Counted from the stretch's first letter, positions 9,687 through 64,000 are shown. The stretch is DNA of 64,000 nt from Gemmatimonadetes bacterium 2013_60CM_65_52 (GCA_002215645.1 NGFI01000010.1:1-64000); one strand, 5' to 3'. The notes: generated by a model from the letters alone, not told the origin. Program-made: numbers and translations.

Positions 9687-9768
9687 CTCCTCCGTCAGGC
9701 GCCTTTACAATTCAGGTGGCGAGTTGTCGTAGCATCGAGGCTAGCCGTCGTCGAGGGGAGCCGGGAGC

Positions 9769-10032
9769 CTACTCGAGAAGGTCGGACTCATACTTCTTGT
9801 AGACGGCACCCTGAGATTCGCGATTCTCGGGACGCTGAAGCTCCTCGATGAGCGCCACGAGGCGCGGCGTGAGAAACACGAGGTACCGGGCGTCGATCGC
9901 TTCATACGTGTGCGCAACTCCGGCCGGCACGAATACCGTTCCCCCTGCGCCGACGTCTACGGAGCGATCGGCAAATCGAAAACGAAGCGCCCCCTCAAGG
10001 ACGTGCCACGCCTCGTCGTCGGTGTGGTGCAC
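9769..10032 (-). CDS. Cupin-domain protein with unclear start
   Basis: A single small cupin barrel. HHTDDEAWHVLEG is metal-binding motif 1 and VFVPAGVAHTYEA is motif 2. The GTG at 10032 is the only ordinary start codon in frame, but homologous-looking sequence (WHVRVLASSSGPAKLHV) continues upstream. That extension runs to the TGA that ends the vapC gene, which is in the same frame. The first His of motif 1 (LHVHH) is lost if translation begins at the GTG. Either a non-standard start is used or the 5' end was lost when the toxin gene arrived. Possible products are 87 residues (from GTG) or about 106. Confidence 0.55.
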   Translation of the reverse strand: MHHTDDEAWHVLEGALRFRFADRSVDVGAGGTVFVPAGVAHTYEAIDARYLVFLTPRLVALIEELQRPENRESQGAVYKKYESDLLE

Positions 10033-10089
10033 GTGAAGCTTCGCCGGCCCGCTGCTGCTCGCCAGAACGCGAACGTGCCACGGTCCGAT

Positions 10090-10521
10090 TCACGCTTCGA
10101 TTGGAAGGACCTCGAGGCCCGCGGCTCGAGAGTTGGCGCGCACCCGCTCGTCGAGCGAGATGACGGAAAGCGTACCCAGTACCTCGCGGAAGCGATCGAT
10201 GGTCGCAAGGTGCAACGCATCGAGCGAACGCACCGGCTCAGTGGGGAACCCTTTCCTCGCGCGAGCGAGAATCTCCTCAGACAGGTCGTGCACGTCCCAC
10301 GAAGACTCCGCCTCGGCCAGAAGATGGCGAGCCACAATCTCCTCCGTCGCAGTGATGCGCTTGAGCGCGCGCGCACGGACGAGTGCACGTGCGCACTCGA
10401 CGGCCGTGAGCGCCGACGTGACGACGCGTTCCGACCGCTGGAGTTCGAGGACGACCGCCTGTTGTGAGGCTTCGCCGATGAGCCATGCGAGAGCGGCGCT
10501 CGATTCCAGATACACGATCAC
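10090..10521 (-). CDS. PIN-domain toxin, VapC-like
   Basis: 143 residues, the usual VapC length. It starts IVYLESSAALAWL, where the first acidic residue of the PIN active site is Glu6 instead of the usual Asp; the other acidic positions are in TAVECARAL, SLDALHLATI and VISLDERV. VapC toxins are Mg-dependent RNases that cut tRNA or rRNA. The GTG start (10521-10519) overlaps the antitoxin TGA by four bases, which fixes the start and shows translational coupling. The cupin frame follows directly after its stop. Confidence 0.85.
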   Translation of the reverse strand: MIVYLESSAALAWLIGEASQQAVVLELQRSERVVTSALTAVECARALVRARALKRITATEEIVARHLLAEAESSWDVHDLSEEILARARKGFPTEPVRSLDALHLATIDRFREVLGTLSVISLDERVRANSRAAGLEVLPIEA

Positions 10522-10811
10522 GTGTCGCGGCGCTCCTCGTCCAGCAACTCGCGCGCGAGCCCATCGGGCGATTTCAGCGGCGACACCTGATACGCCGGCG
10601 CGGGACGCTCGCCCAATCGCATACGTCCCTCGGCAGCCATCGCCGCAAGTGCTCGCTCCTCGGGCGACGCAACCCATTGCGAGACGTCCGGACGCCGGAG
10701 CTCCGCAACCACGCGGCCCCGGTCCGTCACGAGATAGACGTCGCCATTCTGGACGTCCCGGAGCACGCGGCTGAGCTGCGCCTTCAGTTCACGAATGCCG
10801 ATGGTTCGCAT
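10518..10811 (-). CDS. Antitoxin, Phd/YefM type
   Basis: 97 residues. The N-terminus RTIGIRELKAQLSRVLRDVQ followed by YLVTDRGRVVAEL is the Phd/YefM DNA-binding fold. The C-terminal half is charged and would bind the PIN toxin encoded next. The ATG at 10811 starts immediately before the conserved MRTIGIRELK; a TTG at 10820 would add three residues. A perfect palindrome lies ten bases upstream and is the probable autoregulatory operator. The pairing of a Phd-fold antitoxin with a PIN toxin is common in VapBC-type modules. Confidence 0.85.
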   Translation of the reverse strand: MRTIGIRELKAQLSRVLRDVQNGDVYLVTDRGRVVAELRRPDVSQWVASPEERALAAMAAEGRMRLGERPAPAYQVSPLKSPDGLARELLDEERRDT

Positions 10812-10820
10812 ACCCGGCAA

Positions 10821-10840
10821 TGTAGTCTCACAAGACTACA
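10821..10840. promoter_or_regulatory. Palindromic operator of the antitoxin-toxin pair
   Basis: Arms TGTAGTCT (10821-10828) and AGACTACA (10833-10840) are exact reverse complements around a four-base spacer. The site is nine bases from the antitoxin ATG and overlaps where a promoter would lie on the minus strand. Autorepression by the antitoxin is inferred from family behaviour. Confidence 0.6.
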
Positions 10841-10918
10841 CAAGCAAGCAGCCGCCAGGCAGAGTGCTGCATGCAACGCATTGACGCGCGCCCGTTTCGG
10901 ATGTCTCGCCCCGCCATC

Positions 10919-12616
10919 TCAAAGCATCGGCAGTCCCGCGCCATCCGGCCCCACCCAGTCGTATGAGTGCTCGCGCCGGCCGAGCCGCCAGCGCGTCGGA
11001 TAAACGGCGTGCTGCCAGTCCACAGGCTCGGCGAGCGGCTGCGGCACCGCCGCCAGTGCAAGCGCGGCTCTCAGATCGCGACGCTGTTCGTCTCCGAGCG
11101 CATCAGGCGCGATGGAGACGAACAGCGTCGTGCCGCTTCGGCCCAGCAGATCGAGCCACTGCCGGTTCAGCGACCAGGGGATCGCGTTCGTCACACCCAC
11201 GCAATCGGCATCGGCAACGTAGAAGGCGCCGTGCTGCGCTCCGCGAAATGCCAGCGTGTTCACACCCATCTTTCTCGTGCGGGACCACTCCGTACCGCTC
11301 GTATCGTCGCCCACGCGGCAGAGCTCGAAGTGCCCGGCCGACAGGTGGCTCACCGTATTGCAGCCGATGACGACGCCGTCGCCGGCGGCCGTGCGAATGG
11401 CGCGATACAACTCGTCGATGACTTCGGCGGTCGTGCGCGTCGCGCCCGAGGCGAACGTCCACCCGTCGCGCGTCATCGCCGCACCCATCTGCATGCCCCA
11501 TCGGCCGAAGACGTCGTACGTCGTGTAATCGTGCTTGATCAGGTCGAATCCCCACTGCCGCAGGCGCGCGACGTCTTCTGCAACCTTGTGTAGAACGTCC
11601 GGCACGGACGGATCCAGGAACGTGCGATCACGCGGCAAGCGCCATCCATCGGGCGAGTTCACCATCGCCTGAAGCGGCCGTATCCAGATTCCGGCTCGTG
11701 CGCCAATACTGCGGATCTCCGCGGCCAATCCAGGCATGTCCCGAAATTTCTCGTTGCCGTGGTCCCACGTGCCGACCCCAGTCTTGGTGGCGCTCCTCTC
11801 GGGTTGCCATCCGTCATCGATGACGGCGAATGGTCGGTTGCCACCGGCGGGCGACAGCTCGACGATGTGTCGTGCGTCCACCCGAACCGTGTCGGCGCTG
11901 TTACGGCCGTAGACCCAGTACCAGTCGTTGCTTCCGTAAACCGGCTGAGAGGGAAGCCGTGGACTCGGGCACATCTGTCGGCAGAAGTCATGGACGGCGG
12001 CAAAGGCAGATTCTCCTCCCCGGCCCGCGCGTGAGACGACGTCGCAGACGTCGAGCGTGCGCTCGCCGAGCTGCACGCCGAGGCCGCCGCTGCGGACGTC
12101 GGCCCAGAGACTCACTCCCTGCGGATCGATCTGCCAGAAACAGAACGCCCGCGCGCCAGTGCGAACACCATAGGCATGAGTGAGCTCGCCGTCGCTCGTC
12201 GCGGCGTACCATGGCATCACGCGGTCCGGCACCCACCCGCGCCACTCGAGGTCTCCGTACCCCCTCTCCCATGCGTCGCCGAGTATGAGGCGAACGTCGG
12301 TCAAGTCGCCGCGCCAGCGCAGATGGATGCGTTTCGCGGCCGTGCCAGGTGACATGAGTGAGACGCGAATGGCGTCGCCGTGCTCGATGGTGGTGACCGC
12401 GATGCCGTCACTCGTCCATCGCCCTTCGTTCTCACGCACGAGGCGCACGTCACGCGTGGCGGATTGAACGGTGACGCGATCGGGTGCACGGTGGATGTCG
12501 AGATACCTGCGCGGCGCAGCGGCGGTCGTGGCCTCGCGGGCGACGGGCGCCGAGGGTAGCGAGAGTCCAGCTGCGGCCAGTGCGGTACGCCCGATGAATT
12601 CGCGTCTGGAGGTCAT
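10919..12616 (-). CDS. Tat-exported GH36/GH27-like alpha-galactosidase
   Basis: 565 residues. TSRREFIGRTALAAAGLSLP is a twin-arginine signal. An N-terminal beta-sandwich (about 40-215) precedes a TIM barrel with FAVIDDGWQ, the nucleophile region FDLIKHDYTTYD (Asp363) and acid/base candidate RVGDDTSGTEW (Asp437/438). This is the clan GH-D layout. It probably removes alpha-linked galactose or a related sugar from oligosaccharides in the periplasm. The protein is shorter than classical GH36 enzymes, and a more distant member of the clan with another specificity is possible. The sensor-kinase gene that precedes it on the same strand ends 9 bp upstream of its ATG. Confidence 0.8.
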   Translation of the reverse strand: MTSRREFIGRTALAAAGLSLPSAPVAREATTAAAPRRYLDIHRAPDRVTVQSATRDVRLVRENEGRWTSDGIAVTTIEHGDAIRVSLMSPGTAAKRIHLRWRGDLTDVRLILGDAWERGYGDLEWRGWVPDRVMPWYAATSDGELTHAYGVRTGARAFCFWQIDPQGVSLWADVRSGGLGVQLGERTLDVCDVVSRAGRGGESAFAAVHDFCRQMCPSPRLPSQPVYGSNDWYWVYGRNSADTVRVDARHIVELSPAGGNRPFAVIDDGWQPERSATKTGVGTWDHGNEKFRDMPGLAAEIRSIGARAGIWIRPLQAMVNSPDGWRLPRDRTFLDPSVPDVLHKVAEDVARLRQWGFDLIKHDYTTYDVFGRWGMQMGAAMTRDGWTFASGATRTTAEVIDELYRAIRTAAGDGVVIGCNTVSHLSAGHFELCRVGDDTSGTEWSRTRKMGVNTLAFRGAQHGAFYVADADCVGVTNAIPWSLNRQWLDLLGRSGTTLFVSIAPDALGDEQRRDLRAALALAAVPQPLAEPVDWQHAVYPTRWRLGRREHSYDWVGPDGAGLPML

Positions 12617-12625
12617 GCCGGAAAC

Positions 12626-14704
12626 CTATGTCGCCGGAGCGATCGGGAGATCCACCACGAAGGTCGATCCCGTACCGCGCTCGCTCTTCGCATGGATCTC
12701 GCCGCCAGCCTGTCGGACGAGGAGCAACGTGGTATAGAGCCCGAGACCCGTGCCCCTCTCTCCCTTCGTGGAGAAGAACGGCACAAACAAGGATGAAAGC
12801 GTCTCCTCGTCCATGCCGATGCCAGTGTCGGTCACGCACAGCCGAACCCACTGTGATGCGGACGACGACGTCGCCACCGGGAGCTCGTCGTCCGGCGCGG
12901 TGCCGGATGAATGTTTCGCCCCGGATGCGGACACCACTTCAGTCGTGACCGAGATCGATCCATGCTCCGTGACGGCGTCACGAGCGTTCGACACGAGGTT
13001 GAGGACCAACTGCTCGATGGTGATGGGATCGGCCACGACACACGAAGTCCCCGCACCGAGGTCGATGCGAAGATCGACGATGCCGCGAACGAGCACGTGC
13101 AGCATCGGCTCCAGCTCGCGTATCGTGTCGTCAACGCGAATCGCCACGGGCTGTGGAAGCCGTGCCCGACCGAGCGACAGCAGTCGTCCCGTGAGACGCG
13201 ATGCCTGTGCGCCGGCTTCCTCCAGATCGTCGAGCGCCTCGCGATTCCCGTCCGAAAGGTCCGGTGTATCCTTGAGCAGGCCGGCGCTGAGCGTGATCGA
13301 CGTCAGAAGATTGTTGAGGTCGTGCGCCACCCCGGCCGCCAGATGTCCCATCATCTCGACGCGCTGTGCCCGCTGTAGCCGTTCGGTCAATTCGCGCTCG
13401 GCGGTCACGTCTCGCGCAACGACACCCGTGTAGCGGATGACATCGGATGCGTCGCGCACTGGAAAGCGGGTGACGACCAGATGACGCGGCGTTCCGAAGA
13501 CGATCGTCTCGTCGAAGGTGATCGCGTGCCCGCGAGCGACAACCATTCCGTCGCGCTCTCGGGCCAGGGCGGATTCCGCGGGACTCATGAAGTCCCGGGT
13601 GGATCCTCCAATCAACTGCTCGCGCGTTCGTCCAACGAGCCGTGCGTAGGCGCTGTTGGCAATGACCGTGCGTCCGTCGAGATCCTTCAGCACGAGAATG
13701 TCGTCCGAGCCGTTGAGAAATCCTTCGCGGATGTCCACCTGAAGGACGAGCTGCTCGTACGCTCGGCGCCCCTGCTCCGAGAGCGCCGACAACAGGATGC
13801 CGGTGAGCGCGAGCATCGCCAGATAGATCTGAAGTTGCAGCACCCGATCGGCGAGCACGGCCTCTGTCGCGAACGGACCGGTGCCGCGAGCGGTACACCA
13901 TGCGGCCACGGTGCTGATTTCCAGAATCGCAAAGGCGGTCCAACGCGGACCGCATCGGATCGCGGACCATGCCAACAGTGGGAACATCGCGTACGGCACC
14001 ACGACGAACTGCAGGAGGACTGGCGGCCGTGCAAAGGAGAGCAGTGACACGGCGAGGATGGCGGCTTGGCCCAGCAGCAGCTCGGGCGTCTGGGCGCACC
14101 ACGGTCCACTCCGCCGATGCTCGCGCCACCCATACATCACGGGGGGAGCAAACAGGAGCATGCTCAGCGAATCGCCGGCGAACAGCGGAGTCCACGCGGC
14201 AGCAAATGACAGTTGAAACGCGCGTGCGTACGCCACGGCCGACGGCAGCGTCGTTACGAGGGGGACGAGACACACCGCGATGCCGACGAACGACGCGAGA
14301 TCGCCCGCGTCCTCGAGTGGACCGCCTATTTTCGTCGTGCGTCTCAGGAGCAGCGCCGCCAGCGCCGCCTGTGCAAGGCCGGCAAGCGCGCCGATGACCG
14401 TGGCTCCGCTGGCGAGATCGCCACGCACGGCATAGATGGTTCCGACCTGCGCCAGCACGGCAAGACCGCCGATCAGTGGCCACTCGCGGTACGCGCGGCG
14501 AAACAGGATGCCGCAGAGAATACCGTTGATCGGCCAGTATGCCCACGGGCCCGTCTCCGGGCCGAGTCCGACGTAGCGTGAGGCGAGGTATGCGACGGCG
14601 GGAAGCACCAGCGCGGCCACCAGCCACCGCGTGCGCCCGCTGTCGCGATCGACGGGCGCAGGATCGGCGGGGACGGCCACATACGGAATGGCCGGTGTGC
14701 TCAT
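12626..14704 (-). CDS. MASE1-PAS sensor histidine kinase
   Basis: About 692 residues. Residues ~28-310 contain eight or so hydrophobic helices of MASE1 type, including WPINGILCGILFRR. A PAS domain (~325-435) starts with REGFLNGSDDILVLKDLDG. HisKA has phospho-His461 in AAGVAHDLNNLLTS, and HATPase_c shows NLVSNARDAV, DTGIGMDE and GTGLGLYTT. It probably senses a membrane-associated or small-molecule signal. No response regulator gene is adjacent, so it may be an orphan kinase. The ATG at 14704 was chosen because GAGGG lies upstream and earlier in-frame codons encode low-complexity, non-homologous sequence. Confidence 0.88.
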   Translation of the reverse strand: MSTPAIPYVAVPADPAPVDRDSGRTRWLVAALVLPAVAYLASRYVGLGPETGPWAYWPINGILCGILFRRAYREWPLIGGLAVLAQVGTIYAVRGDLASGATVIGALAGLAQAALAALLLRRTTKIGGPLEDAGDLASFVGIAVCLVPLVTTLPSAVAYARAFQLSFAAAWTPLFAGDSLSMLLFAPPVMYGWREHRRSGPWCAQTPELLLGQAAILAVSLLSFARPPVLLQFVVVPYAMFPLLAWSAIRCGPRWTAFAILEISTVAAWCTARGTGPFATEAVLADRVLQLQIYLAMLALTGILLSALSEQGRRAYEQLVLQVDIREGFLNGSDDILVLKDLDGRTVIANSAYARLVGRTREQLIGGSTRDFMSPAESALARERDGMVVARGHAITFDETIVFGTPRHLVVTRFPVRDASDVIRYTGVVARDVTAERELTERLQRAQRVEMMGHLAAGVAHDLNNLLTSITLSAGLLKDTPDLSDGNREALDDLEEAGAQASRLTGRLLSLGRARLPQPVAIRVDDTIRELEPMLHVLVRGIVDLRIDLGAGTSCVVADPITIEQLVLNLVSNARDAVTEHGSISVTTEVVSASGAKHSSGTAPDDELPVATSSSASQWVRLCVTDTGIGMDEETLSSLFVPFFSTKGERGTGLGLYTTLLLVRQAGGEIHAKSERGTGSTFVVDLPIAPAT

Positions 14705-14801
14705 CACCACCCTCGCCGCTGGGAGTGCATCTCGGACGCTCCGGAATTCTGCCATCGTAATGATTCGCCCATCGCGACCGGTCAGCAGCGTTTCCGACCG
14801 C

Positions 14802-15377
14802 TCACACCGATTCCGCGTCGACGAAAAATGCCGGGATGTCCAGCTCGAATGCCGCGCCTGCTCCCTCGGGATGCCACACCAAACGCTCCGCAAGAATCGC
14901 AGGACGTTCGTCGTCCGGCTGCCACCGCTCGAACGTGCGCGACTGTTGATCGATGACCCAATACTCCGGCACGCGGGTGCGCTGATAGCGCGGGCGCTTG
15001 ACGACACGATCGAAGCGCGCCGACGACGGAGAGATGATCTCGGCGGCGAGCAGGAGCTTGCTGACGAAGTACTCCTTGTCCACGAGCTCTGCCGTCGGCA
15101 CCACGAGCAGGTCGGGCTGCGTGACGAGTCCGGGTTGGAGCTTCACGTCCAACGAGGCGGTCAGCGCGCGTCCCAGCCGCATGGCGCGCACGTATTCATG
15201 GAGAAGCGCAAAAAGAGATCCGCTCACCAACTGATGATCTGTGCGAGGGCTGGGAGTCACGAGCACCTCGCCGTCGACCAGCTCCCAACGTTCGCCCGGC
15301 GGAGCCGCGTCACGCGCGACGTAGAACTCCGCCTCGGTCCACAGAGGGGATGCTGATTGATGCGCGACCATGAACAT
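14802..15377 (-). CDS. Uma2-family (DUF820) PD-(D/E)XK endonuclease-like protein
   Basis: About 191 residues. The Uma2 fold is marked by WTEAEFYVARDAAPPGERWELVDGEV, SGSLFALLHEYV, the acidic QPDLLVV strand and AAEIISPSSARFDRVVK followed by VPEYWVID. The Asp and Glu in these strands form the predicted nuclease site. Members are abundant in cyanobacteria and soil bacteria, and a biological role is rarely known. ATGs at 15377 and 15371 are both possible; no strong ribosome-binding site distinguishes them. Confidence 0.8.
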   Translation of the reverse strand: MFMVAHQSASPLWTEAEFYVARDAAPPGERWELVDGEVLVTPSPRTDHQLVSGSLFALLHEYVRAMRLGRALTASLDVKLQPGLVTQPDLLVVPTAELVDKEYFVSKLLLAAEIISPSSARFDRVVKRPRYQRTRVPEYWVIDQQSRTFERWQPDDERPAILAERLVWHPEGAGAAFELDIPAFFVDAESV

Positions 15378-15514
15378 AATGTGCTCGGCGGCGATGGGGT
15401 TTCGCAAGCGGGGCCATGACGCAGCCTAGCGCGACGTGCGCTGCGCAGCCAAACCCTTAGTGCTCGCGTCTTATCCTTGCGTTGCAACGCGCCGAGTGGG
15501 CGTGGCGTCGTGCG

Positions 15515-15838
15515 CTATGCTCTCTTAGGCTCTCCGTCGTCGCTGACCGAGTCATAGATGCGCACTGCGGTCCAGAAGGCACCGCACTCCGCTCTGAACG
15601 TGTCGTGCACCGGATGCACTTGATACGCGTCGTGCGCCACCTGATCGGCGAAGATGAGCACGAGCGCCCGAGTATAGCTCCGCTCGATCACTGGACGGTC
15701 CGTGGGCGCTGGCACACCGATGTATCCCTGCGCCACACCCTCGATCGCGCGCACCGATCGCAAGCCCGCCTCGAACTGAGCGCGTTGGGCGGCGGACAGA
15801 TCATCTCGAAGCCAGAAATAGACCGCATGTATGAACAT
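15515..15838 (-). CDS. Dabb (stress-responsive A/B barrel) family protein
   Basis: 107 residues. The opening MFIHAVYFWLRDDLS and the central helix/strand pattern with HDAYQVHPVHDTF are typical of ferredoxin-like Dabb proteins, which act as dimers and include cyclases and proteins with no known reaction. It sits 32 bp downstream of the PepSY membrane-protein gene on the same strand. No function beyond the fold can be assigned. Confidence 0.85.
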   Translation of the reverse strand: MFIHAVYFWLRDDLSAAQRAQFEAGLRSVRAIEGVAQGYIGVPAPTDRPVIERSYTRALVLIFADQVAHDAYQVHPVHDTFRAECGAFWTAVRIYDSVSDDGEPKRA

Positions 15839-15870
15839 TCAAAGGCCGGATTGATGTGAAACGGCAACGT

Positions 15871-17364
15871 CTACAGGAGGCGACGCACTCGTCTGGTCGC
15901 GATCCACACGCCCGTCGCGGCGGCGATCAGTCCGCCGAGCATGAACGGCAGGACGACGGCATCCCACAGTGGCCGGCGACCGTTGATTGCCGGAAAGTCC
16001 CAGGTGTGCATTCCGTCTCTGAGCCACCGCCAGCGCCGAGACTCACGGTCGACAAATCCGACCGGGGCACCAGTGACCGTGTGCAGGTACAGGGCCGAGT
16101 GTGCGCTGTCGTCGAACGCCACATGCCAAACCGGGAGATGTACCTCGCGTCCGCGCCGCGCATAGTAATAGGAATCATGCCGGTCGAGCCGCTCCGCTGA
16201 CGCGACGCGCGCGGTCGGCACGACGCTGAGAGCCGCTTGCGCCGCTCGCGCCGAATCGAGCTCGCCGCGGACCGCGCCCGTGGCGGCATCGACCCACACT
16301 TCGGGTCCCGTCACGGATTGAATGTCGTAGCCCGGACGTCCTCCCAATTGTTCGAGCGTGACGGACAGGAGGCGGTCGGATCGCAATGCGCCGCTCGATC
16401 GTGCTGCACGTACGGCGTCCCCCTCGCTCAGCGATACCTGTCGCCAGGCGACCGACCCGCCGCGCGCGCGAGCCGCCTGTCCTGGTCGCACGCTGTTTCC
16501 GCTGCCAAGAATCTCGAGTACGCCGCTGACACTCCACGTGAGAACGACGAGGCCGAAGCCAATGCCGGCGACGTGATGCCATTGTGACACTCCACCATAT
16601 GCGCTCACTCGCCATTGGCCTTGTCGGCGCCGGGGAAACAGTTGCACGACCCCGTAGACGATTCCGGTGAGCGCCATGAGCACCGCTGCACCCGGGAGAA
16701 GGAGATTGAGCCAGGTCCAGAGCTCGCGGCGATCGTACAGCCATCCGAAATACAGCCAGTGCGGCACGACACCGAGCCACGTTGTGAGGCGCGTGCGGTT
16801 CGTGACGACGCCAAAGATCGCGCCGCGGCCGCGTGAGACGTACAACGCCGTGCCGGCATCGTCATCGAATCGCACGCGATACGCGGGGAAATAGCGCGCG
16901 TACTCTCCCGACATCATGTAGCGGTCGCCGCGATCGACGAGCGCCGTGCCACGCACAGCTGTACGCGCGCCACCAACGGAGCGAGCAAAGGCGATCGCGC
17001 GCGGCGAGTCGAGTGGTGTGAGCGGCAAGCCGGAGCGGGCGTCCACGAGTGCGACCGGTTCCACGTGTCCGTCGCGATAATCCTCCCACAACTCATATAT
17101 CAGATGTCCGTCGCGCCGGAACAGACGTCCGCCGACAGGCGTGGAGCGCTGATCGACTGTTGCTGCCTTGCTGAAGCCCACGACCGACGTGGTCAGAACC
17201 GCGAGATCGAATGGCTCCAGCATGGCTCGCTGCCGCGACTCCGTGATGAGCGGCCACGAGTAGTACATCATTGCGATCCCGCTGGCGAACCAGGAGAAGA
17301 CGATGAGCCCGAGGACGATGCCGGACCAGCGATGAAAGAGAAAGACGTAGCGGCGCCAGTTCAT
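15871..17364 (-). CDS. PepSY-associated transmembrane protein
   Basis: 497 residues. It begins NWRRYVFLFHRWSGIVLGLIVF, the first helix of PepSY_TM proteins, which carries the conserved HRW. Two further helices lie near the middle (HHVAGIGFGLVVLTWSVSG) and one at the C-terminus (PFMLGGLIAAATGVWIA). Periplasmic PepSY-like domains lie between them. Relatives are linked to siderophore or iron uptake and to flavin reductases, so a periplasmic or inner-membrane electron-transfer role is plausible but unproven. The ATG at 17364 is chosen because it opens the conserved helix; upstream in-frame sequence is not conserved in character. Confidence 0.8.
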   Translation of the reverse strand: MNWRRYVFLFHRWSGIVLGLIVFSWFASGIAMMYYSWPLITESRQRAMLEPFDLAVLTTSVVGFSKAATVDQRSTPVGGRLFRRDGHLIYELWEDYRDGHVEPVALVDARSGLPLTPLDSPRAIAFARSVGGARTAVRGTALVDRGDRYMMSGEYARYFPAYRVRFDDDAGTALYVSRGRGAIFGVVTNRTRLTTWLGVVPHWLYFGWLYDRRELWTWLNLLLPGAAVLMALTGIVYGVVQLFPRRRQGQWRVSAYGGVSQWHHVAGIGFGLVVLTWSVSGVLEILGSGNSVRPGQAARARGGSVAWRQVSLSEGDAVRAARSSGALRSDRLLSVTLEQLGGRPGYDIQSVTGPEVWVDAATGAVRGELDSARAAQAALSVVPTARVASAERLDRHDSYYYARRGREVHLPVWHVAFDDSAHSALYLHTVTGAPVGFVDRESRRWRWLRDGMHTWDFPAINGRRPLWDAVVLPFMLGGLIAAATGVWIATRRVRRLL

Positions 17365-17721
17365 GCCGGCAACGTAGAATCGGTGTTCGTGTCGTGCTAG
17401 AACCCCACACGGCGATGGCGTCAACTCGGCGCGCGGAGAGCGTCTCCGTTGCCAATGTCTGGTGAGGGCGCCGGCGCAAACGCTTCAGCGCGCCTCCATC
17501 CCATCGTAGCACTGCCCGCCAACATGAGCGCTTCGAACCTCCTACCACTGTGCGATTTCGGCGAAGGCGTGGAGGACTCCATTCCGCGTGTCGGGCTGCT
17601 CCCGAGCGCGATCTCTGAGCCGGCCGGGTACCCGCGCAGCGGGTGGACGGCGAAGTGAAGCGAGCGACGCGCAGTGCGCGAGCGAGCGGTCGCGCGGGGA
17701 GCAGCCTGGCGCGCGACTAGG
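17365..17721. other. Gene-free stretch with GC-rich internal repeats
   Basis: No convincing gene on either strand. The right end (about 17625-17719) is dominated by short repeated and inverted GC-rich words: an ACCCGC/GCGGGT inverted repeat and several GCGAGCG copies around GCGCAGTGCGC. It could be a repetitive extragenic element or the transcription end of the GH20 gene region; I cannot tell which. Confidence 0.4.
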
Positions 17722-50876: not shown

Positions 50877-51728
50877 ATGCATCGTCGCCAATTCATCACC
50901 GCCCTCGGATCCGCGGCTGCGCTCTCGCAGTTCGGCTGCCTCACCGCCGCACGCGGCAGCGGCACACGACGTCTCAAGCGTGTCGGCCTCCAGCTCTACA
51001 GCCTGCGCGACGACGCCCGACGCGATCTCGCGCGCACCATCGCCGACATCGCCGCGGTAGGCTACAACGACGTCGAGCTCCTCGGCTCGATGAACAACTT
51101 CGGCATGCCACCGAAGGAGCTTCGTCGAGTGCTCGACAGCCATGGCCTGCGCGCTCCGTCGACGCACGTCGGCGGTAACGCACTCGACAATCTCCCGCGC
51201 CAGCTCGACGACGCGCAGACGCTCGGCCACGAGTACATCATCGTGGCCAGTCTGCCGATCCCGGGAAAGCCGACGCTCGACGACTATCGCCGCTGGGCCG
51301 ACCGTTTGAATGAGGCGGGGCGCATTACGCGCGAGCGCGGCATCTGGATCGGCTTCCACAATCACGAGGGCGACTACGCCGTGCTCGATGGCGCAGTCGC
51401 GTATGACGTGTTCGCGGCGCGGACGGATCCGTCAGTCGTGCGGCTTCAGCTGGATGTCGGCAATGCGGCGATGGGCGGCAAGGATCCGATGGACTACATG
51501 CAGCGGTTCGGCGACCGCTATTGGTCGTTCCACATCAAGGACGTGCCGAAGTTCGGACCGACGCCGGATGCGGAGCTCGGCAAGGGCATCCTCGATTTTC
51601 GCCGGCTGCTGGCGAGCATCGACCGGATCGACGAGAAGCTTCTGTTCGTCGAGCAGGAGACATATCCGGGTACGCCGCTCGAGAGCGTCCGTCGCGACTT
51701 CAACTACATCTCGACGCTGAGGTTCTGA
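50877..51728 (+). CDS. Tat-exported sugar phosphate isomerase/epimerase
   Basis: 283 residues. HRRQFITALGSAAALSQFGC is a Tat signal that also carries a Cys in lipobox-like position. The barrel shows RVGLQLYSLRDDARRDLARTIADIAAVGYNDVEL, GFHNHEGDY, LQLDVGNAAMGG, WSFHIKDVP and FVEQETYPGTP. The metal ligands are the conserved Glu, Asp and His in these strands. It is a secreted relative of the isomerase at 32006 and may act on periplasmic oxidised sugars. Its last 29 bases overlap the convergent RES toxin gene. Confidence 0.87.
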   Translation: MHRRQFITALGSAAALSQFGCLTAARGSGTRRLKRVGLQLYSLRDDARRDLARTIADIAAVGYNDVELLGSMNNFGMPPKELRRVLDSHGLRAPSTHVGGNALDNLPRQLDDAQTLGHEYIIVASLPIPGKPTLDDYRRWADRLNEAGRITRERGIWIGFHNHEGDYAVLDGAVAYDVFAARTDPSVVRLQLDVGNAAMGGKDPMDYMQRFGDRYWSFHIKDVPKFGPTPDAELGKGILDFRRLLASIDRIDEKLLFVEQETYPGTPLESVRRDFNYISTLRF

Positions 51729-52212
51729 CCGTTTTCTTAGCGATCGAAGACGATGTGTGCCCGGTGCCGTCGAAAGCAAATGGTCGCGTGGAGACGACTT
51801 TGACCCGGGCCATCGCCGCGTGCCGTGGATTGAGCAGCACGTTGTACTCCTGTGGGACGATTGCCGATGGCACTGCAAGCCAGAGGAACGCTGCATCCGC
51901 GACCCACATCGTGCCCAGCTCTGCCTGCCACTCCTGCGCCGGGTAGTCCCGCCAGTTCCCGGGAGGAAACTGCCCGACCGTCACCCGTGCGCCCAGCCCA
52001 TCCGTTTCCGGCACGTCGATCTCGCTTGCGACAAGATCGATGGGCGCAAGGAGCGGTTCCACGTGGACCAGCAACTCGAGCGCCGCGAGCGACAGGCTTT
52101 GCGACGTGTAGACGACGGGAATGCCCGCGGGATTCCAGCGTCCGCCATTCAGCCGTGCGCCCTCGCCATCGAGAGCCTGATACTGGCGTCTCGCGATCCG
52201 CCAGACTCGCAC
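51700..52212 (-). CDS. RES-domain toxin
   Basis: 170 residues. WRIARRQYQALDGEGARLNGGRWNPAGIPVVYTSQSLSLAALELLVH holds the Arg, Tyr and Ser/Glu of the RES fold, which degrades or phosphorylates NAD+ in characterised members. The GTG start at 52212 lies 14 bases after the antitoxin stop. The C-terminus runs 29 bp into the end of the convergent isomerase gene; this tail (from about DGTGHTSSSIAKK) is not typical and the original stop may have been lost. Confidence 0.85.
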   Translation of the reverse strand: MRVWRIARRQYQALDGEGARLNGGRWNPAGIPVVYTSQSLSLAALELLVHVEPLLAPIDLVASEIDVPETDGLGARVTVGQFPPGNWRDYPAQEWQAELGTMWVADAAFLWLAVPSAIVPQEYNVLLNPRHAAMARVKVVSTRPFAFDGTGHTSSSIAKKTVRTSASRCS

Positions 52213-52226
52213 TGTACCGGAACGCT

Positions 52227-52661
52227 CTAGCTGTACACGCCGTGTTCAATCCGGCCGAGGGCGCGCTCGACGAGCCTCGCGCCGACGTCCGTCTCCAGCA
52301 GAGCGATCGGCGCCTTCCCTCTGAGCGATCTGTTGCTCGCTCTGAGCCAGGCGCGCGCCTTCGATTCGGTTCCGAGCACGTCGGCGGCGTACACCGCGAT
52401 GCGGATCACCCGCAGCAGCCGATCGGATTCAACCACCGTGAGCGGCTCATTCTCGTCGCGCCGTCGCTCGAAGGTGCGCCGCGGCACGACGAGCGAATAG
52501 AACTCCTCGGCGTCGAGCACCCCGGTTTCCACCGCACGGTACGCGGCGGCCGCGGGAATTCCTTCCATGGCAGCCGTCGCCAGGTCGAAATCCGAGTGCA
52601 CGTCCGTCCCCAGGAGCGGATATCCTCCCAGGACGGCAGCAACGGCTTCGGAGACGATCAT
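52227..52661 (-). CDS. Xre/MbcA/ParS-type antitoxin (DUF2384)
   Basis: 144 residues from ATG 52661 (a GTG at 52676 is possible). The toxin-binding domain is at the C-terminus: VVPRRTFERRRDENEPLTVVESDRLLRVIRIAVYAADVLG, then ARAWLRASNRSLRGKAPIALLETDVGARLVERAL. It sits upstream of the RES toxin gene, the normal order. The N-terminal region is shorter than a full HTH, as in many MbcA-type members. It should neutralise RES and repress the operon. Confidence 0.88.
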   Translation of the reverse strand: MIVSEAVAAVLGGYPLLGTDVHSDFDLATAAMEGIPAAAAYRAVETGVLDAEEFYSLVVPRRTFERRRDENEPLTVVESDRLLRVIRIAVYAADVLGTESKARAWLRASNRSLRGKAPIALLETDVGARLVERALGRIEHGVYS

Positions 52662-52867
52662 CGGGAGTTGTGGCACATGGCACAGTTAATCTGCGCGATT
52701 GCCATCCCGGGCGCAATGGGTGCGGCCACCGGTCCTACGAGAGAAAGATGAAGTAGCTGATTACGGCGACGACGAGAGCTGATAGACCTATCAGCGCGCC
52801 ACGCGTTCAGTGGCAGGGCGGTCTGTTCTTGCCATCGTTTGCCGGCTGCGTAGACATGAGATGGCTG

Positions 52868-56137: not shown

Positions 56138-56539
56138 CTACTCGGACACGTCCATGTGCGAGATCGCATCACCGCGCAGACAGAGGGTTGATTCATTGGC
56201 CGTCGTGAGGTACTTCAAGACCGCTAGCTTGCGATCGCCCTCCTCCATTCTGTCATTGTATTCCATCTTTGCGCGGCACTCACCGATATCCCAGCCGAGG
56301 TCCGCGAAGGCGCGTTCAAGTCGCTCCGGAGCGCCACCGTCAGCCAGGTCTCTCTCCAATTCGCTTGCATCAGATTGCCGGCCTCGCGCAAGAAAGCCGG
56401 CTTTTGCTACAATCGCCGCGAGACATAGCATTACGCGGCCTTGCGTATCGCGTGTCGCTGGACTCTTTGGAATAGAGGCCTGACCAAAGGCGATCTCGAT
56501 TGCACGCTCCCGTACACCGTTCGTCGCTAATGCCATCAT
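56138..56539 (-). CDS. Small protein of unknown function
   Basis: 133 residues, mostly helical and charged, no signal peptide (RERAIEIAFGQASIPKSP, MLCLAAIVAKAGFLARGRQ, LERDLADGGAPERLERAFADLGWDIGECRAKMEYNDRM). AGGAGG lies five bases before the ATG at 56539, a strong case for real translation. It follows the membrane-anchored protein gene by 24 bp. No family is recognised. It could be a partner or immunity-like protein in the right-hand defence-type region, but that is only positional inference. Confidence 0.65.
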   Translation of the reverse strand: MMALATNGVRERAIEIAFGQASIPKSPATRDTQGRVMLCLAAIVAKAGFLARGRQSDASELERDLADGGAPERLERAFADLGWDIGECRAKMEYNDRMEEGDRKLAVLKYLTTANESTLCLRGDAISHMDVSE

Positions 56540-56563: not shown

Positions 56564-57382
56564 TTAGGCCGGCTGTCGAAGCTTATCGCGCAATGCTGCT
56601 ACTTCCAGTTCTTTCGCCGCTATAGCGCCTCTGAGTGTTTCGAGTCGCTTCCTGTTTAGCGTCTTCAGGTTGTAGCCCTTGTACGCCTCAAGCAGGAACT
56701 GGAGATGCTGGTACGGCGGGCTCGCGCCGACCGTATCGTCATACTTCCATTCGGCTGGATTATGACAAATGCGTAGGTACTCTTGCACGATCTTTCGATC
56801 GGCGATTACTGCAAGATAATCGCCAAGAATGATTACTACATCCTCAATACGCATCAGCCCCTCATAGACATACAGCCCGATTGCATTGAAGTAATCGAGG
56901 AGACCATCAAGTTTCTTCTCTTCCGGGCTGAATTGAAACAGCAATGGATGGTAGAACCTGCAGCCCGGTTCAATTCCTGCATTTAGCCGTTCAAACGGGC
57001 CGAATACTGGCTTATCCTGCGCGGGCACCTTACCTCTCGCACTGATATACTCATGCGCAGTGCGATCGACTTGGCTAAAGATCTCGTCGCGAAACCGATA
57101 CACGAGGTCATAGAAGGCCAGGAACAATTCACCGTTCTTCCTGAACTCAGTCAAGAAATCTTTGACGTAAGCGGCGCGCTGCACTTGCTGCGTTCGTACC
57201 AGTTGCGCAATCGTAATCGCAAACGCTGGTACAGTAGCGAATACGACCATCCCGATGTTTGGATCAAAGTGCGCCCAGCCAAGGAGAATCGGCAATAGCA
57301 GGGCGCCTTCAGCGGCACCTACGAGTAGCACCGTCCAGAGGACGTTGTGTTGTCTAAACGTTCCCCATTTGTTAGTGTACAT
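56564..57382 (-). CDS. Membrane-anchored protein, DUF4760-like
   Basis: 272 residues. Two N-terminal transmembrane helices (LWTVLLVGAAEGALLLPILLG and IGMVVFATVPAFAITIAQL) precede a cytoplasmic helical domain. That domain has AAYVKDFLTEFRKNGELFLAFYDLVYRFRDEIF and LDGLLDYFNAIGLYVYEGLMRIEDVV. The C-terminal 30 residues (RKRLETLRGAIAAKELEVAALRDKL) look like a coiled coil. The layout resembles DUF4760 proteins, some of which lie in defence islands. DNA composition is AT-richer than the left part of the window. A membrane-acting effector is possible but unproven. Confidence 0.65.
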   Translation of the reverse strand: MYTNKWGTFRQHNVLWTVLLVGAAEGALLLPILLGWAHFDPNIGMVVFATVPAFAITIAQLVRTQQVQRAAYVKDFLTEFRKNGELFLAFYDLVYRFRDEIFSQVDRTAHEYISARGKVPAQDKPVFGPFERLNAGIEPGCRFYHPLLFQFSPEEKKLDGLLDYFNAIGLYVYEGLMRIEDVVIILGDYLAVIADRKIVQEYLRICHNPAEWKYDDTVGASPPYQHLQFLLEAYKGYNLKTLNRKRLETLRGAIAAKELEVAALRDKLRQPA

Positions 57383-57758: not shown

Positions 57759-58871
57759 CTATGACGTGAGAATGAGGTCGATCTCTCCCGCCGTCTTGGC
57801 GAAATCACCAAAAAGGTGAGTTTGGGTGTCGCCGGCCACCGGTCGTCTCCGGATTACAAGATCCTTTGTGGGGAATGTCTCTCGGAGGACAGCAAGCGTT
57901 GTTTCGCGGGTGAACTTGCGCGCGTCCGTTCGGACGTAGATCGTGGCATCTCGTCGCAGTAGCCGCTTAGCGCGGGCAAACACCTCGCTGAGGAGGGTCT
58001 CGTAATTCGCACGATGCTCAAATTTGCCGCGGAGCCAGTTTCCGTTCCTTGCGGCATGGGCAGGGCCGCCAAGCAACCAGAGACGCAGCCACTGATCATA
58101 GTGATAGTTCGTGACTCCGTAGTAGGGCGGCGACGTAAAGAGTAACTTCGCCCTTCGGAGATCGCCGCGTGCCATTCGGGCAGCGATGCGTGGCAGTACA
58201 GTCATGCTGTTACCGAAATACACAGTCGATGATTCGCACTCAGGAGTTCCCTTTGCGTACCTCCAGGCGAGCCGAGAGGTGAGGAAGTCTACAGGATCCA
58301 CCTGTGGGGGCCGAGCGTTATGCTCCTTCCACCAGCGAATTGCGTAGTCCGGCGACATTGACTTCGTCTGTCGCATTTGGTTCGAGAGCGCCGCGCCTTC
58401 ATTTCCGTGAAGGTACACGAGAAGAATCGCCATGGCCGTACGATCCGTAGCCGATCGGCGCCAGTCGAGCCGATCGCGTGCCGCTAAGAGAAAACGGCGA
58501 ACAGGCGCCGCAAAGCACCGATGAAAGAAGGGCGGCAGCGCACGGGCGCTCTCTACGTATCGCGCAGCAGTGGCTACGCGGCCAATTTCCTGCACGCGAT
58601 GCGCGACCTCATCGTGCTCCGCCGCAGCAAGTTTCGCCTTCGCGTAGACAAACCCGACCGGGCTGATTTCGATGCCGACACCGGCACGACCCTGTGTCGC
58701 GGCGCTGAAGATAGCAGTGCCCCGACCCGCGAACGGATCGAGCACCAAATCGCCGGCCTGCGTGTGTTCGCGAACCACTCGGTCCGCGAAGCCGGTCGGG
58801 AACATGGCATAGTAAGGGCCGAGCCCTGCCCATCGCCCAGCGGCGGTACCATAGTCGATGTGCCGAGCCAT
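57759..58871 (-). CDS. DNA methyltransferase (N4-cytosine/N6-adenine type)
   Basis: 370 residues. The SAM-binding motif DPFAGRGT (45-52) comes first, then about 190 residues that include the probable target-recognition region, then the catalytic TSPPY (246-250, FTSPPYYGVTNYHYDQW). This order is alpha-like. The C-terminal HLFGDFAKTAGEIDLILTS is unremarkable. It transfers methyl groups to DNA bases, probably to protect self DNA. The ATG is seven bases from the stop of the NurA gene, so it is the third gene of the HerA-NurA-methyltransferase unit. No restriction endonuclease gene is adjacent. Confidence 0.87.
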   Translation of the reverse strand: MARHIDYGTAAGRWAGLGPYYAMFPTGFADRVVREHTQAGDLVLDPFAGRGTAIFSAATQGRAGVGIEISPVGFVYAKAKLAAAEHDEVAHRVQEIGRVATAARYVESARALPPFFHRCFAAPVRRFLLAARDRLDWRRSATDRTAMAILLVYLHGNEGAALSNQMRQTKSMSPDYAIRWWKEHNARPPQVDPVDFLTSRLAWRYAKGTPECESSTVYFGNSMTVLPRIAARMARGDLRRAKLLFTSPPYYGVTNYHYDQWLRLWLLGGPAHAARNGNWLRGKFEHRANYETLLSEVFARAKRLLRRDATIYVRTDARKFTRETTLAVLRETFPTKDLVIRRRPVAGDTQTHLFGDFAKTAGEIDLILTS

Positions 58872-58878
58872 GGGCGGT

Positions 58879-60237
58879 CTACGTCGCCAGCATCAAGGCT
58901 TTGGCCAGCTGCTCGAGTACCTTTGCCCCGAGATGGAGTGGGATCGCGGCTTGGGCGTGTGCCGAGACAATCGGCGCGAGCGCGTTTGGAAAGCGGGACG
59001 AGACGAGCTTGTCTAGAAGAGCACACGTAACCGGAAACGCCGGATACATGGAGATATCGGCGGTCTCAAGAGTGTCTTGTTTCGGATCGAGGAACGGGAT
59101 GCTCGCGACGATTCGCGCTCCGCTTCTCGTTTTGTAAAAGAACTTGCGACCGAAATAGGTATCCAGGCCGTAGCGCTTCTCCGATGTCGAGAAAATGATC
59201 CGCTCCTTTATGTAGTCGTCCGTGAGAAGCATGTAGTCGCGCGGCGCGAAGCGTGTGGTGCCAGCCGTCTCCGATTTGTCGAGCTCCTCGAAGTGCGCGA
59301 CGAAGGCTCCGCTCTTCTCCACGCCAACGATCAGGAGGTCTCGTCCAGTTGACTCGCGGACCTTTGCGTTGAGACGCTGGAGTTCGCTTGAGATCGCAGC
59401 CGAGAGCCACGCCGGATGCCCAAAGAGAGCCAGTGGGCCGTCGAGAAAGAAAGCCAACCGATGAGCGCTGCCAAGCAGATCTCCACGTTCGAAAGCGCGG
59501 AGAAGGTGAATGAGAAGCACGCGCTCCCACACCTGCATGATCTCGCCGAACGCCTCGCCATTCGTTCCGGTGTCGCGAAATGCCTCGTGACTGCGGAGAG
59601 CATCAGTTGACCACACGGAGCGCTTGAGGGTGCACGCGCAGGAGGACAGTCCGTGGCCAATGGCGAAATGCTCCTCGCACGCCGTGTCGAGGTTGTATGG
59701 ACACACCTGGGGCCGAGTCCGAGGCTTGAGGGCCAGGAGGGCCTCGTATGTGTCGAGCAGTGGCGTCAGGTCCTGGCTGTCTACGACACCATTGTGGAAA
59801 ACGTCGTACACCTCCTCCCGAAAGGCCACGCGGGCGCTCGTGTGCGTCCGAGTGACCACGTTGCTTCCCGGCAGAGCTGCGTCGATGGTCGCCGCTTGCT
59901 CGGTCTTTCGAAACTCGACGGGGTCGGCTGGACGCCGCTCATCAAGCGAATTGACCGCCTCAAGGTCGAGGAGAACACTGGCAACCGTAAGGTACCCGAC
60001 CTTCGCGCCCGGATAGCCGTTGCGAACATCGACTTCAGATTGGCTCCCGTCGATCGCTACGACGAACTGGGGAAGCGCGTCATCGGCGGTGGGCGCTTGA
60101 GCAGGAAGGGCAGCTGGCTCGCTCGAAGCGGGCGCGTGAACTCGTGCACGTGTAAGAAGTTGCTTGACTCGTTCGGTGTCGGCGAGCCGCTGGAGCGCGC
60201 GATAGCCTGCGAACTCCCCCTCATACGGCATCGCCAT
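58879..60237 (-). CDS. NurA-domain nuclease
   Basis: 452 residues. The NurA motifs are [13 protein letters not shown] with Asp63 and [14 protein letters not shown] with Asp266, plus [18 protein letters not shown]. NurA is a Mn-dependent 5'-3' exonuclease that works with HerA. Between these motifs four cysteines (179, 187, 200, 202) make an insert, a possible zinc site not obvious in archaeal NurA. The ATG at 60237 overlaps the herA stop by 17 bases, with CCGGAGCGG in front. An earlier ATG at 60291 is out of family length. Confidence 0.85.
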
Positions 60238-62359
60238 CCGCTCCGGCAATAGTTGGGTCGATGCTGAACAGGTCCACTTGAACGGGTACAACGTATGGAT
60301 TTGAGAGGGTCTTCACCCGCAGGAAGCCCTTGTCCTGGGCACGCAAGATACTCGCCTCGAAATCCGCAAAGTCGTAGAACTTCCGCAATTCCCTTGTCTC
60401 GTCCGTGTTGTTGAGATGTCCTATAAACCAGTTCGCGGTGTTGCGGAGGATGTTCTTCTGAATCGAACTCACTTCTTGCGTCGCATAGACGAGACCGATC
60501 TGGTACTTCGCGCCCTCCTTGGCAGTGCGGACCCAGACGTCGGAGAAGTCCTGTTCGTTGGACGAGGGGAGAATGTTATGAGCCTCCTCAAGGTATATCA
60601 GGATGCTGGGCGGAATCTGCGCGGTTCGGAAGAGTTCCTGGTTCTTCTCGAAAATGCGCCACATGACTCTGTCGGCGGCGGCCTTGTTGAGCAGCGGCTC
60701 ACCGCTAGATTGATCCACGATCACGAGCTTGCCGGCCGCGACGTGTGCGTAGATATCGTCCGCATAGTCGGTGCTCGTATCTGGCGTGTGTTGCGCTTTG
60801 ACGCGGCCGATGAGCCGAGATCCGTTCGGATACGCAAACATCTCGAGAACTTTCCGAAGGTCGTCGTCGGCCCACGAACCCGATGAACTCGTCTGAACGT
60901 ACGCCTGATCGAATCCGGTCCAGCCTGATGCGCCGTCCTTTATGAAGTCGTGCAGCGTCCCGAACGCTTGGGCGAGCTCTGGCCAACCGGGCGCCTTTTT
61001 CCCAAGGATCGTAGCACACAACGCGTACGCCGCCGGATCCTTGCCGCCCGACGATGTAAGAGCTGTGAGCAGGTCCTGGTTGAAGAGGCTCGTCGTTATT
61101 GGCTTCAAGGTGGTCGGCGGTACCAGGCCAGCTTTGCTGAGAAGCGCCCTGTATGCCAGCACGCGGCGTTGGTGTCGCGTCATGGCGGAGCGATCAGTCG
61201 CAGCTGGTGTCTCCAGCCGGACGTCGCTGAAGTTGCCGATGTACTTCGATCCCCGGTCGGGCGAAAGCGCGAGATCGATTATGCTCTTGCCTATTTCAAG
61301 ATTGCCATCAACAAAGAAGTTCAGGAGCATCAACCTGCGCCCGGGATCGTGTGGGTGGGCCATGATCCCATACGTCACGACATCCTCCTTGGACATCGCC
61401 TGCTCAGACGTCGGGCCGCACATCCACACGTTCTTGATCGCCGTTGGCTGCGCTCTCTTCTGCGCATCCTGAGTGTTTTCGTTCGCGTATTCGCCATTCG
61501 GATCGAGGACGAGCTGACCAACCCGCTCCTTAGAGTCGTGCCAGCGCAGCTCGAAGATCGACTTGAGCATCACCTTCGTAGTATTGGACTTGCCTGTTCG
61601 CGTCATGCCGAAGAGCGCGGACTTTTGGCCGAGCAGATCGCGTGGACCGATCGCGACCGGTACATTGGCGATCCTCTGGAATGGCCGGTTCGTCGAGGCA
61701 TAGCGAACATGGCCGATAGTCACTTGCACGGTCGGGTCGAAGGCCTTCGGATCGCGCGGGTCGCGGTAGTTCACGATTCGACGAAGAACCTCGGCGCGCG
61801 GCTTGTAGACCTTGAGGCCCTGATTCGGGTAGTAGTTGCTGATGTCCGAGCCAAAAACAAGCCCGTACCTTCCACCGGCGGTGCCAGGCGGGAGCTCAGA
61901 CACGTAAAAGGTCCCGAGCACGCGACAACGTACACCGGCGTAGCTCAAAAGGTTGTGGGTTGTCGCGTCCATGACGGACTTGTCATCCCAGTGCCGTCCG
62001 ACCTCCCCGCTCACGCGCTGCGCCGTCTCCACGCGGACGCGGAGGGCCTCCTGCGCATTCGGGAGATCAGCGTGATCAAGTACACGAAGCAACAGAACAG
62101 AGGTGTCTTCTTCTCTAACGTCGACCGTCTGATCAGGGTAAATGCGGCTCGCCAGAAGGAAGGAGAGTGCCGGCACGCCTCCGACCTTCGCCCGGTAGTG
62201 GTCGTGAATCTGCACCAGGCTCTCGGCGTATGACAATGAGTACACGTCACCGACGTACGCAGCCTCCTCGATCAAGTCCGTGAGGAGACGGCCGGCGTCG
62301 GCGAGGTCAGGTGCGAGTTGCTCCGCTAGTCCCTTCGAGACCTTCCCGATGATGTCCAT
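60221..62359 (-). CDS. HerA-like DNA translocase ATPase (DUF87)
   Basis: 712 residues. A HAS-barrel-like N-terminal part (~1-235) is followed by a RecA-type core with Walker [10 protein letters not shown] (251-259), [11 protein letters not shown], and Walker [10 protein letters not shown] (586-594). A sensor region [33 protein letters not shown] follows. HerA forms hexamers that pump or unwind DNA and stimulate NurA. Bacterial copies of this length are usually in defence islands. It is encoded between the DUF3883 gene and nurA on the same strand, with an overlap to nurA. Confidence 0.9.
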
Positions 62360-62610
62360 TCGGAGCTTGTGGGGTTGTGCGTGCGGAGGCGCGTCATCCT
62401 GCGCGCGGCGGGCGAACTACATGGGCGTCCGACGTTAACGCGACCATCAGCCGAGTCGGCGGTTCCTGATGCCATTCAGGACGGGCCGCGCAGCCGGAGG
62501 AACCATGCCGCCGCCGTCGCTGTGAGTCAAGGAGTCGCTTACAGTGCGCTGTCAAGAATGTCGGTGACAGGCGCTCAATTACGCGGTCGCCCCTCGCGGT
62601 ACCTGTGACC
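62360..62610. other. Intergenic gap between DUF3883 gene and herA
   Basis: No gene supported. A minus-strand TTGACA-like word is present but no good -10 box could be matched. The 251 bp suggest that herA may have its own promoter or that a small element was lost here. Confidence 0.35.
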
Positions 62611-64000
62611 TCAGCGCTCTTCGGCGATGCTCCGCCAACCGTGGTCGAATGTGAAGCTTTGGGACTTGCCTGCCGGGTCTTGAATTCGGACGATTCGGGG
62701 AACCTCACTTCCCGCGTGCTCGACGATGTACAGCCAATAATTCTCGCCGCGATCGCGAGCGCATTCGAACTGCGTTCGCGACATCCCTACAGATCGATCA
62801 TCGAGACTGCCGGTCATCGCCTTGACCTCGCACAAGCGGGTAGCGGCGCCCAGCGCCTCGCCCTGGTACAAATCAAAACCGGGGTTGTTAGCTGGCGTGC
62901 GCCGCCACGTGGGCTCCTTGCTAATGATCAGATCAATGGCCTTCCTCTCAAGCGTCATGCGTGCCAAATGATCAAGGCCGTCAGGGTCCGGCGCTTCCGT
63001 TTCAGAATGGGCCGCGACGTAGGAGACGAAGGGTCGTTTTCCCGTGCCGTCGGGCGCGCGCTTGGCGCCCGCTTCGCGGTCATTCGCTTCCTTGTCGCCC
63101 CCGGTGCCTTCGCTACGCGTGTGATCTTGGCCAGAATCAGCGCCGCCCCCGTTAGCATCACCGTCATCGCCCCCGTCGACAGCACTCACCAAAGGATCTT
63201 GATCATCCCGGTGCGGGACGGACGTCTCGTCATTCAGCGTATCCCCATCCGACGTCTTGGCGCCATTCTCCACATCGCCTTCGCCCGACGTCACATCGGG
63301 AACTATCTCATCCGCAACGCCGAGCCGCGCGCGGAGCTCCGACTCGCTCGTTACACCAAGCTGCTTGAGCAAGTCCAACACTCCAGGCTCGATACCAGCC
63401 TCTTTGGCCAGTTGGTCGATAATTGCTGGCCTAAAGCGCACTTTGGCGAGAAGAAACGGATTCGCCTTCCAGCCGAGCGAGCCAAACAGAATCGCATCGG
63501 GTACCTGCAAATTGCCATCTCCGTCCGCAATCCAAGCCGTCGTATTGAGTACGCGAACGAACGTCGAGTCGAACCGTCGTCGGTAACCGCCGTAGTGAGA
63601 CCAACTGTACTCACCATCAAATATATCCTTGCCACGGCGCTCTTCGAGATGATCAAGCTCTTCCCAGAGCAATCCGGCTTTGGTGCGACGCACCTGAAGC
63701 GTGAACCCAGAGAGGGATTTGAGAAGGCCTTCAAGCCCGAGGAGCGTCCAGTCAGTAACGTGGTCCTTGAAGCCAGAAGTCTCGGCGTGGCCTGCCTGCA
63801 CACGCAGTGCCTCGCGCTCCTGCCATGACAGGCCAATGCCGCCAATCGGGCGCAGGTAACGCACCGCGCCACAGGCTTCAAGCAGCTCGCGTATTCCCTC
63901 TCCTCGCAGGCAAGAATACCGACCATCGACTAGCAGAACGTTCGCCACCGACGCGAACAGCTCCTTGAGTCGCTCGGTTGCGATATAGAGCTGGCCGGGC
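62611..64000 (-). CDS. DUF3883-domain protein, C-terminal part (cut by window edge)
   Basis: At least 463 residues are inside; the frame stays open to base 64000 (GQLYIATERLKELFASVANVLL precedes the GTG at 63948), so the gene continues to the right. The visible part holds YRRRFDSTFVRVLNTTAWIADGDGNLQ and GWKANPFLLAKVRFRPAIIDQLAKEAGI, typical of large sacsin-like GHKL ATPases. After a Gly/Asp-rich linker, the C-terminal DUF3883 nuclease-like domain has LCEVKAMTGSLDDRSVGMSRTQFECARDRGENYWLYIVEH. The EVK is a predicted PD-(D/E)XK site. It is the first gene of the candidate defence unit. Confidence 0.85.
   Translation of the reverse strand, partial: PGQLYIATERLKELFASVANVLLVDGRYSCLRGEGIRELLEACGAVRYLRPIGGIGLSWQEREALRVQAGHAETSGFKDHVTDWTLLGLEGLLKSLSGFTLQVRRTKAGLLWEELDHLEERRGKDIFDGEYSWSHYGGYRRRFDSTFVRVLNTTAWIADGDGNLQVPDAILFGSLGWKANPFLLAKVRFRPAIIDQLAKEAGIEPGVLDLLKQLGVTSESELRARLGVADEIVPDVTSGEGDVENGAKTSDGDTLNDETSVPHRDDQDPLVSAVDGGDDGDANGGGADSGQDHTRSEGTGGDKEANDREAGAKRAPDGTGKRPFVSYVAAHSETEAPDPDGLDHLARMTLERKAIDLIISKEPTWRRTPANNPGFDLYQGEALGAATRLCEVKAMTGSLDDRSVGMSRTQFECARDRGENYWLYIVEHAGSEVPRIVRIQDPAGKSQSFTFDHGWRSIAEER

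Follow-up and report, generated by a model that had tools for sequence, protein, structure and literature searches.

The window, that is, the whole 64,000-nt stretch of DNA analysed, makes up the first 64,000 bases (1-64000) of a contig of 148,739 bases, which belongs to a genome of 4.2 Mb and 14 contigs. At its right end, ORF calls and Pfam searches located four genes on the minus strand (Table 1), in the order that had been proposed in an earlier, sequence-only reading of this DNA: a protein with a DUF3883 domain, HerA, NurA and a DNA methyltransferase (MTase).

Table 1. Genes of the block, with positions in the window, strand and the matches on which the assignments are based
Gene product	Position	Strand	Evidence
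DNA methyltransferase (MTase), alpha order	57759..58871	-	PF01555, E 7.8e-16; alignment of 9 homologues
NurA-family nuclease, inserted Cys cluster	58879..60231 (alternative ATG 60237)	-	PF09376, E 7.8e-7
HerA-family translocase ATPase	60221..62359	-	PF01935, E 6.4e-12
Tiamat TmtA-like protein, C-terminal 462 aa	62611..64000 (window end)	-	NOV_C PF13020, E 5.8e-9

The stop codon of herA (TGA, 60223-60221) lies downstream of two possible nurA start codons, and the 17-bp overlap of the two genes that had been described earlier was read from the sequence for the first of them, ATG 60237. The second, ATG 60231 (MPYEGE), is the start common to all homologues, and the overlap counted from it is 11 bp. 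The 7-bp gap between nurA and the MTase gene (58872-58878) was also as described, while the tmtA-like gene and herA are separated by about 250 bp, which makes this junction looser than the other two. When the contig was extended to the right, as the sequence-only reading had advised, the fourth gene could be read whole; it runs past the window to contig base 65817 (ATG) or 65826 (TTG) and encodes 1071 aa. Beyond it there is an ORF of 187 aa and then ribonucleotide reductase. The local G+C content is 0.55-0.61 at the block versus mostly 0.62-0.66 leftward. Two minus-strand ORFs at 56138-56539 and 56564-57382 were considered as operon members and rejected, because they are set off by a 376-bp gap, have no Pfam match and were not seen at the other loci; one of them is apparently membrane-bound, and their stretch has the lowest G+C of the region. 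Further left, the minus strand at 51700-52676 encodes a pair of a RES-domain toxin and an Xre/MbcA/ParS-type antitoxin.

The sequence motifs of HerA and NurA are well preserved. HerA has a Walker A motif GMTRTGKS (residues 251-258), an EEAH motif (591-594) and a TQE motif (627-629), which are kept in all members of the family, with GMSRTGKS as the Walker A in one copy. When a profile of 9 HerA homologues was compared with the PDB, the best match was TdpA (8wet, E 7.5e-21), followed by the next match at 1e-8. In NurA, the acidic residues D61, E236 and D264 are conserved, except for the viral copy L080, which lacks E236 and D264, and a Cys cluster, which forms a zinc-ribbon-like insert, is followed by a TD motif. 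NurA profiles gave no match among PDB sequences. The AlphaFold model of NurA built from a diverse alignment (pLDDT 83.5, pTM 0.84) had as its best fold match in the PDB the nuclease chain of TdpAB, 8wfd_G (E 1.8e-9, TM 0.47/0.57), followed by NurA of Thermococcus, Deinococcus and others at 2e-6 and weaker. An earlier model based on 9 close sequences had a pLDDT of 64.5 and the same top fold match. The similarity of the predicted NurA fold to that of TdpB is moderate.

The alpha order of the MTase motifs, which had been assigned in the sequence-only reading, is supported by the position of motifs X/I (FP..., DPFAGRGT, residues 24-52) before motif IV (TSPPYY, 246-251), with about 190 residues between them. 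In agreement with this order, residues 19-71 match positions 161-213 of the PF01555 profile, which means that the protein is permuted relative to the profile. The SPPY form of motif IV would suggest N4-cytosine methylation, and DPPY N6-adenine methylation. In a central stretch, residues 141 to 182, six diverged members share 66% identity, as compared to 38-43% on either side, and one could speculate that the target sequence may be conserved as well.

The searches for related loci were seeded with NurA or HerA only. When 84,980 species genomes were scanned with NurA as the seed, nine loci emerged, from Planctomycetes, Fermentibacter, Myxococcota, Verrucomicrobia, Cyanobacteria and a gammaproteobacterium, and the HerA-NurA-MTase order was kept at all nine, including the degenerate L015. 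Further loci were obtained by NurA or HerA searches of the window's phylum, plasmids, phages and viral contigs, and the triad is also carried by a vibriophage, by further viral contigs and by a plasmid of a haloarchaeon. Altogether, the MTase adjoins HerA-NurA at 23 of the 27 non-redundant loci with readable flanks, a tally which leaves out L016 and L078, cut by contig ends. The adjoining enzyme is an alpha N6_N4-type MTase at 14 loci (the window, L007-L014, L017, L021, L022, L029 and the degenerate L015) and a D12-type MTase at nine (L019, L020, L033, L079, L080 and L082-L085; the contig of L082 stops before NurA). The four loci at which the MTase is absent are those of the related cyanobacterial plasmids L018, L023 and L096, and the degraded L030. 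The position of the MTase gene varies, as it can be located downstream from nurA, upstream of herA, or convergent downstream from nurA.

The assignment of these MTases to two Pfam families, the N6_N4 type and the D12/Dam type, was confirmed by Pfam, and the families may be distantly related; because the MTase of L017 also matches PF02086 weakly, we call them different rather than unrelated. The genome of the window contains two PF01555 matches and no PF02086 match in its 4.2 Mb, so a chance neighbor of this kind would be expected with a frequency of at most about one percent for each locus. The conserved unit consists of three genes, HerA-NurA-MTase.

Identity values calculated pairwise for NurA, for HerA and for the MTase are correlated with each other (0.94-0.98, Mantel p <= 0.0004), and, judged from these identities, the three proteins share one history. 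NurA is 81-85% identical among genomes of Phycisphaerae, Fermentibacter and Cystobacterineae, which, together with the correlated histories, points to transfer of the triad between phyla as a unit. The exchange of one MTase family for another, with HerA-NurA kept, points to a functional coupling of the enzymes. These matching histories and this exchange make it unlikely that the MTase is an independent anti-restriction or epigenetic enzyme of mobile elements, placed beside a HerA-NurA nuclease that needs no modification signal and acts, for example, on any linear end. Such independence would be consistent with the ability of HerA-NurA to act on any DNA end, and with the three related cyanobacterial plasmids, whose loci have no MTase nearby, so that their HerA-NurA may work without an MTase, or with a distant one. 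The D12-type MTase in phages could also serve anti-restriction instead of self-marking.

The fourth gene behaves differently. Its product combines a sacsin/GHKL ATPase domain at the N terminus (PF25794, E 2.8e-14) with a C-terminal NOV_C/DUF3883 domain that shows the pattern GFD...EVK, which is suggestive, and only suggestive, of a PD-(D/E)XK nuclease. The protein matches the PADLOC models of TmtA (E 7.8e-64), the protein of the Tiamat system. It resembles TmtA in having both the N-terminal ATPase and the C-terminal NOV_C domain, while it differs in its length of 1071 aa, compared to 1063-1782 positions in the models, most of which exceed 1300, and in that its gene adjoins the triad. The sequence-only reading had proposed all four genes as one unit and suggested looking for the four families as neighbors in other genomes. 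Three of them, HerA, NurA and MTase, are indeed regular neighbors, while the membership of the DUF3883/sacsin protein was not upheld, because its gene adjoins the triad at two loci only, that of the window and L007, on a Phycisphaerales contig. At both loci the gene is on the same strand as the triad, the gene order is the same, and the two TmtA-like proteins are 51% identical, as could be expected if the HerA-NurA-MTase machine depended on the TmtA-like ATPase/NOV_C protein as its sensor or effector. This is quite improbable, since tmtA is absent from all other triad loci readable upstream, and a 51%-identical TmtA homologue stands alone, without HerA, NurA or MTase, in a genome of the same family (G101). 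We regard the TmtA-like gene as a defence module of its own, which is optional, and as a facultative neighbor of the triad.

The distribution of the triad is patchy, and its surroundings are defence-like, with Shango SngC at L008, a type I MTase at L029, a type IV restriction enzyme at L080, Shedu at L019 and AbiTii at L023 among the neighbors of HerA-NurA at other loci. The vibriophage copy of the triad adjoins a phage integrase, and its HerA-NurA pair had no blastn match in E. coli genomes. In two genomes of the window's genus the genes located 3′ of ribonucleotide reductase are unrelated to the block. It is improbable that HerA-NurA is here a housekeeping machinery of DNA end resection and repair, with the MTase as an incidental or regulatory neighbor, because even though HerA-NurA of archaea and Deinococcus has been studied as end-processing machinery (PMC12977600), the matches are limited to 5 of 395 genomes of the window's phylum and to none of the six other genomes sampled from its genus, which is not lineage-wide conservation, HerA-NurA is found on plasmids and phages and within defence neighborhoods, its pairing with an MTase is consistent, and the same paper, from 2026, argues that HerA-NurA even in archaea may be antiviral and break down foreign DNA instead of resecting ends. 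The window family shares with the archaeal and Deinococcus HerA-NurA the gene pair and the NurA fold, while it differs from them in the adjoining MTase and in the patchy spread on mobile elements; the Cys-cluster insert of the window NurA is a candidate further difference.

The closest solved structures to HerA and NurA are TdpA and TdpB of TdpABC, a phosphorothioate-based defence system of thermophiles (An et al. 2025, Nat Chem Biol, doi 10.1038/s41589-024-01832-w, cited in PMC13251355 and PMC12345140), and both putative restriction subunits of the triad are homologous to TdpAB. In both systems a HerA-type motor and a NurA-fold nuclease make up the restriction half, which is accompanied by a DNA-modification gene. 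In Tdp, the phosphorothioate is added by TdpC, and DNA without it is degraded by TdpAB, as the sulphur hinders translocation. The unit in the window differs from TdpABC in having a methyltransferase in the place of TdpC, the phosphorothioation component, and in the low sequence identity of its proteins. Pfam scans of the block and the flanking genes found the MTase, but no sulphur-transfer or adenylating enzyme. The triad probably works like Tdp, yet is not Tdp.

These observations suggest that herA-nurA-MTase is, with good probability, a modification-guided restriction unit, in which unmarked DNA is degraded and methylated self DNA is spared. The MTase would place its mark on target sites in the host genome, while HerA, as a hexameric pump of double-stranded DNA, and NurA, as a dimeric nuclease, would form one machine; the solved Thermococcus complex contains six HerA and two NurA subunits (PMC12977600). 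This machine may load on DNA ends, for example those of incoming phage genomes, thread the duplex, and degrade it when it is unmarked. The sparing of methylated self DNA could be explained most simply if the mark stalled or disfavored threading, as the phosphorothioate is reported to do in Tdp; this mark-sensing step is drawn by analogy only, as no TdpC was seen. We infer that such a logic, with methylation marking self and HerA-NurA degrading, is the best explanation for the triad, with a structural precedent in TdpAB. The triad, which is mobile and widely shared, would then probably serve to destroy phage genomes and other invading DNA that lacks the tag. If this is true, HerA-NurA, which has long been discussed as repair machinery, would be tied to modification-guided immunity in bacteria, archaea, plasmids and phages, and the Tdp principle would be widened from phosphorothioate to ordinary base methylation. 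HerA-NurA should then spare DNA bearing the mark of its own neighboring modification enzyme, whatever that enzyme is.

As a broader and more tentative proposal, for which the chances appear slightly short of even, HerA-NurA could be an engine of restriction in general, able to read more than one kind of self mark; the motor and nuclease would be kept, while the modification module is swapped. Within this proposal, and at the same tentative level, the marks would be phosphorothioate in Tdp, probably m4C or m6A with the alpha N6_N4-type MTases, and m6A with the D12/Dam-type MTases. Bacteria, archaea and phages would then share a distinct and widespread type of restriction-modification, in which translocation, instead of an endonuclease that reads the sequence, serves to sense the marks.

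The comparison with other named systems agreed with the sequence-only reading, which had recognized none of them in this block. PADLOC has no model matching NurA, and it detected no core genes of DISARM (DrmA/DrmB) or BREX (BrxC/PglZ). MADS was rejected, as the mad gene set is missing in the PADLOC results; HerA weakly resembles mad8 (E 1.4e-9), which is below its matches to other HerA models. HerA-SIR2 (Nezha) and HerA-DUF4297 also consist of a HerA motor and an effector partner, while the partner in the window is NurA, with an attached MTase; both were rejected, because Pfam and PADLOC scans found neither SIR2 nor DUF4297 in the block or its neighbors. The HerA-SIR2 loci L086 and L089, which were distant search matches, have neither NurA nor MTase. 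The triad resembles type II restriction-modification in the pairing of an MTase with a DNA-degrading partner, and this linkage of a modification enzyme to a DNA-degrading activity is seen as gene adjacency at the 23 of 27 loci; it differs in having an ATP-driven motor-nuclease, with no site-specific restriction enzyme recognized. The passages found in the literature on HerA-based or predicted defence systems (PMC10853773, PMC12839542, PMC11291478, PMC13092281) contain no description of a HerA-NurA-MTase system. The search covered open-access literature, and a prior description in subscription journals or preprints is possible.

Several individual loci showed further peculiarities. The herA gene is split at L029, herA and nurA are merged in one ORF at L015, and nurA is truncated at L030; these three, together with L080, are probably decaying copies. 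At L022, on the Deferribacter plasmid pDF308, herA is interrupted by an IS200/IS605-type element with TnpB (3347-5126). At L007, the triad is directly followed (8629-17489) by genes for a UvrD/Cas4-like helicase-nuclease, a type III-like MTase and a BPTD_3080-type restriction enzyme, with which it possibly forms one larger defence operon. The cyanobacterial plasmids L018, L023 and L096 have an XRE-type regulator next to HerA and NurA, and they possibly represent a regulator-controlled variant.
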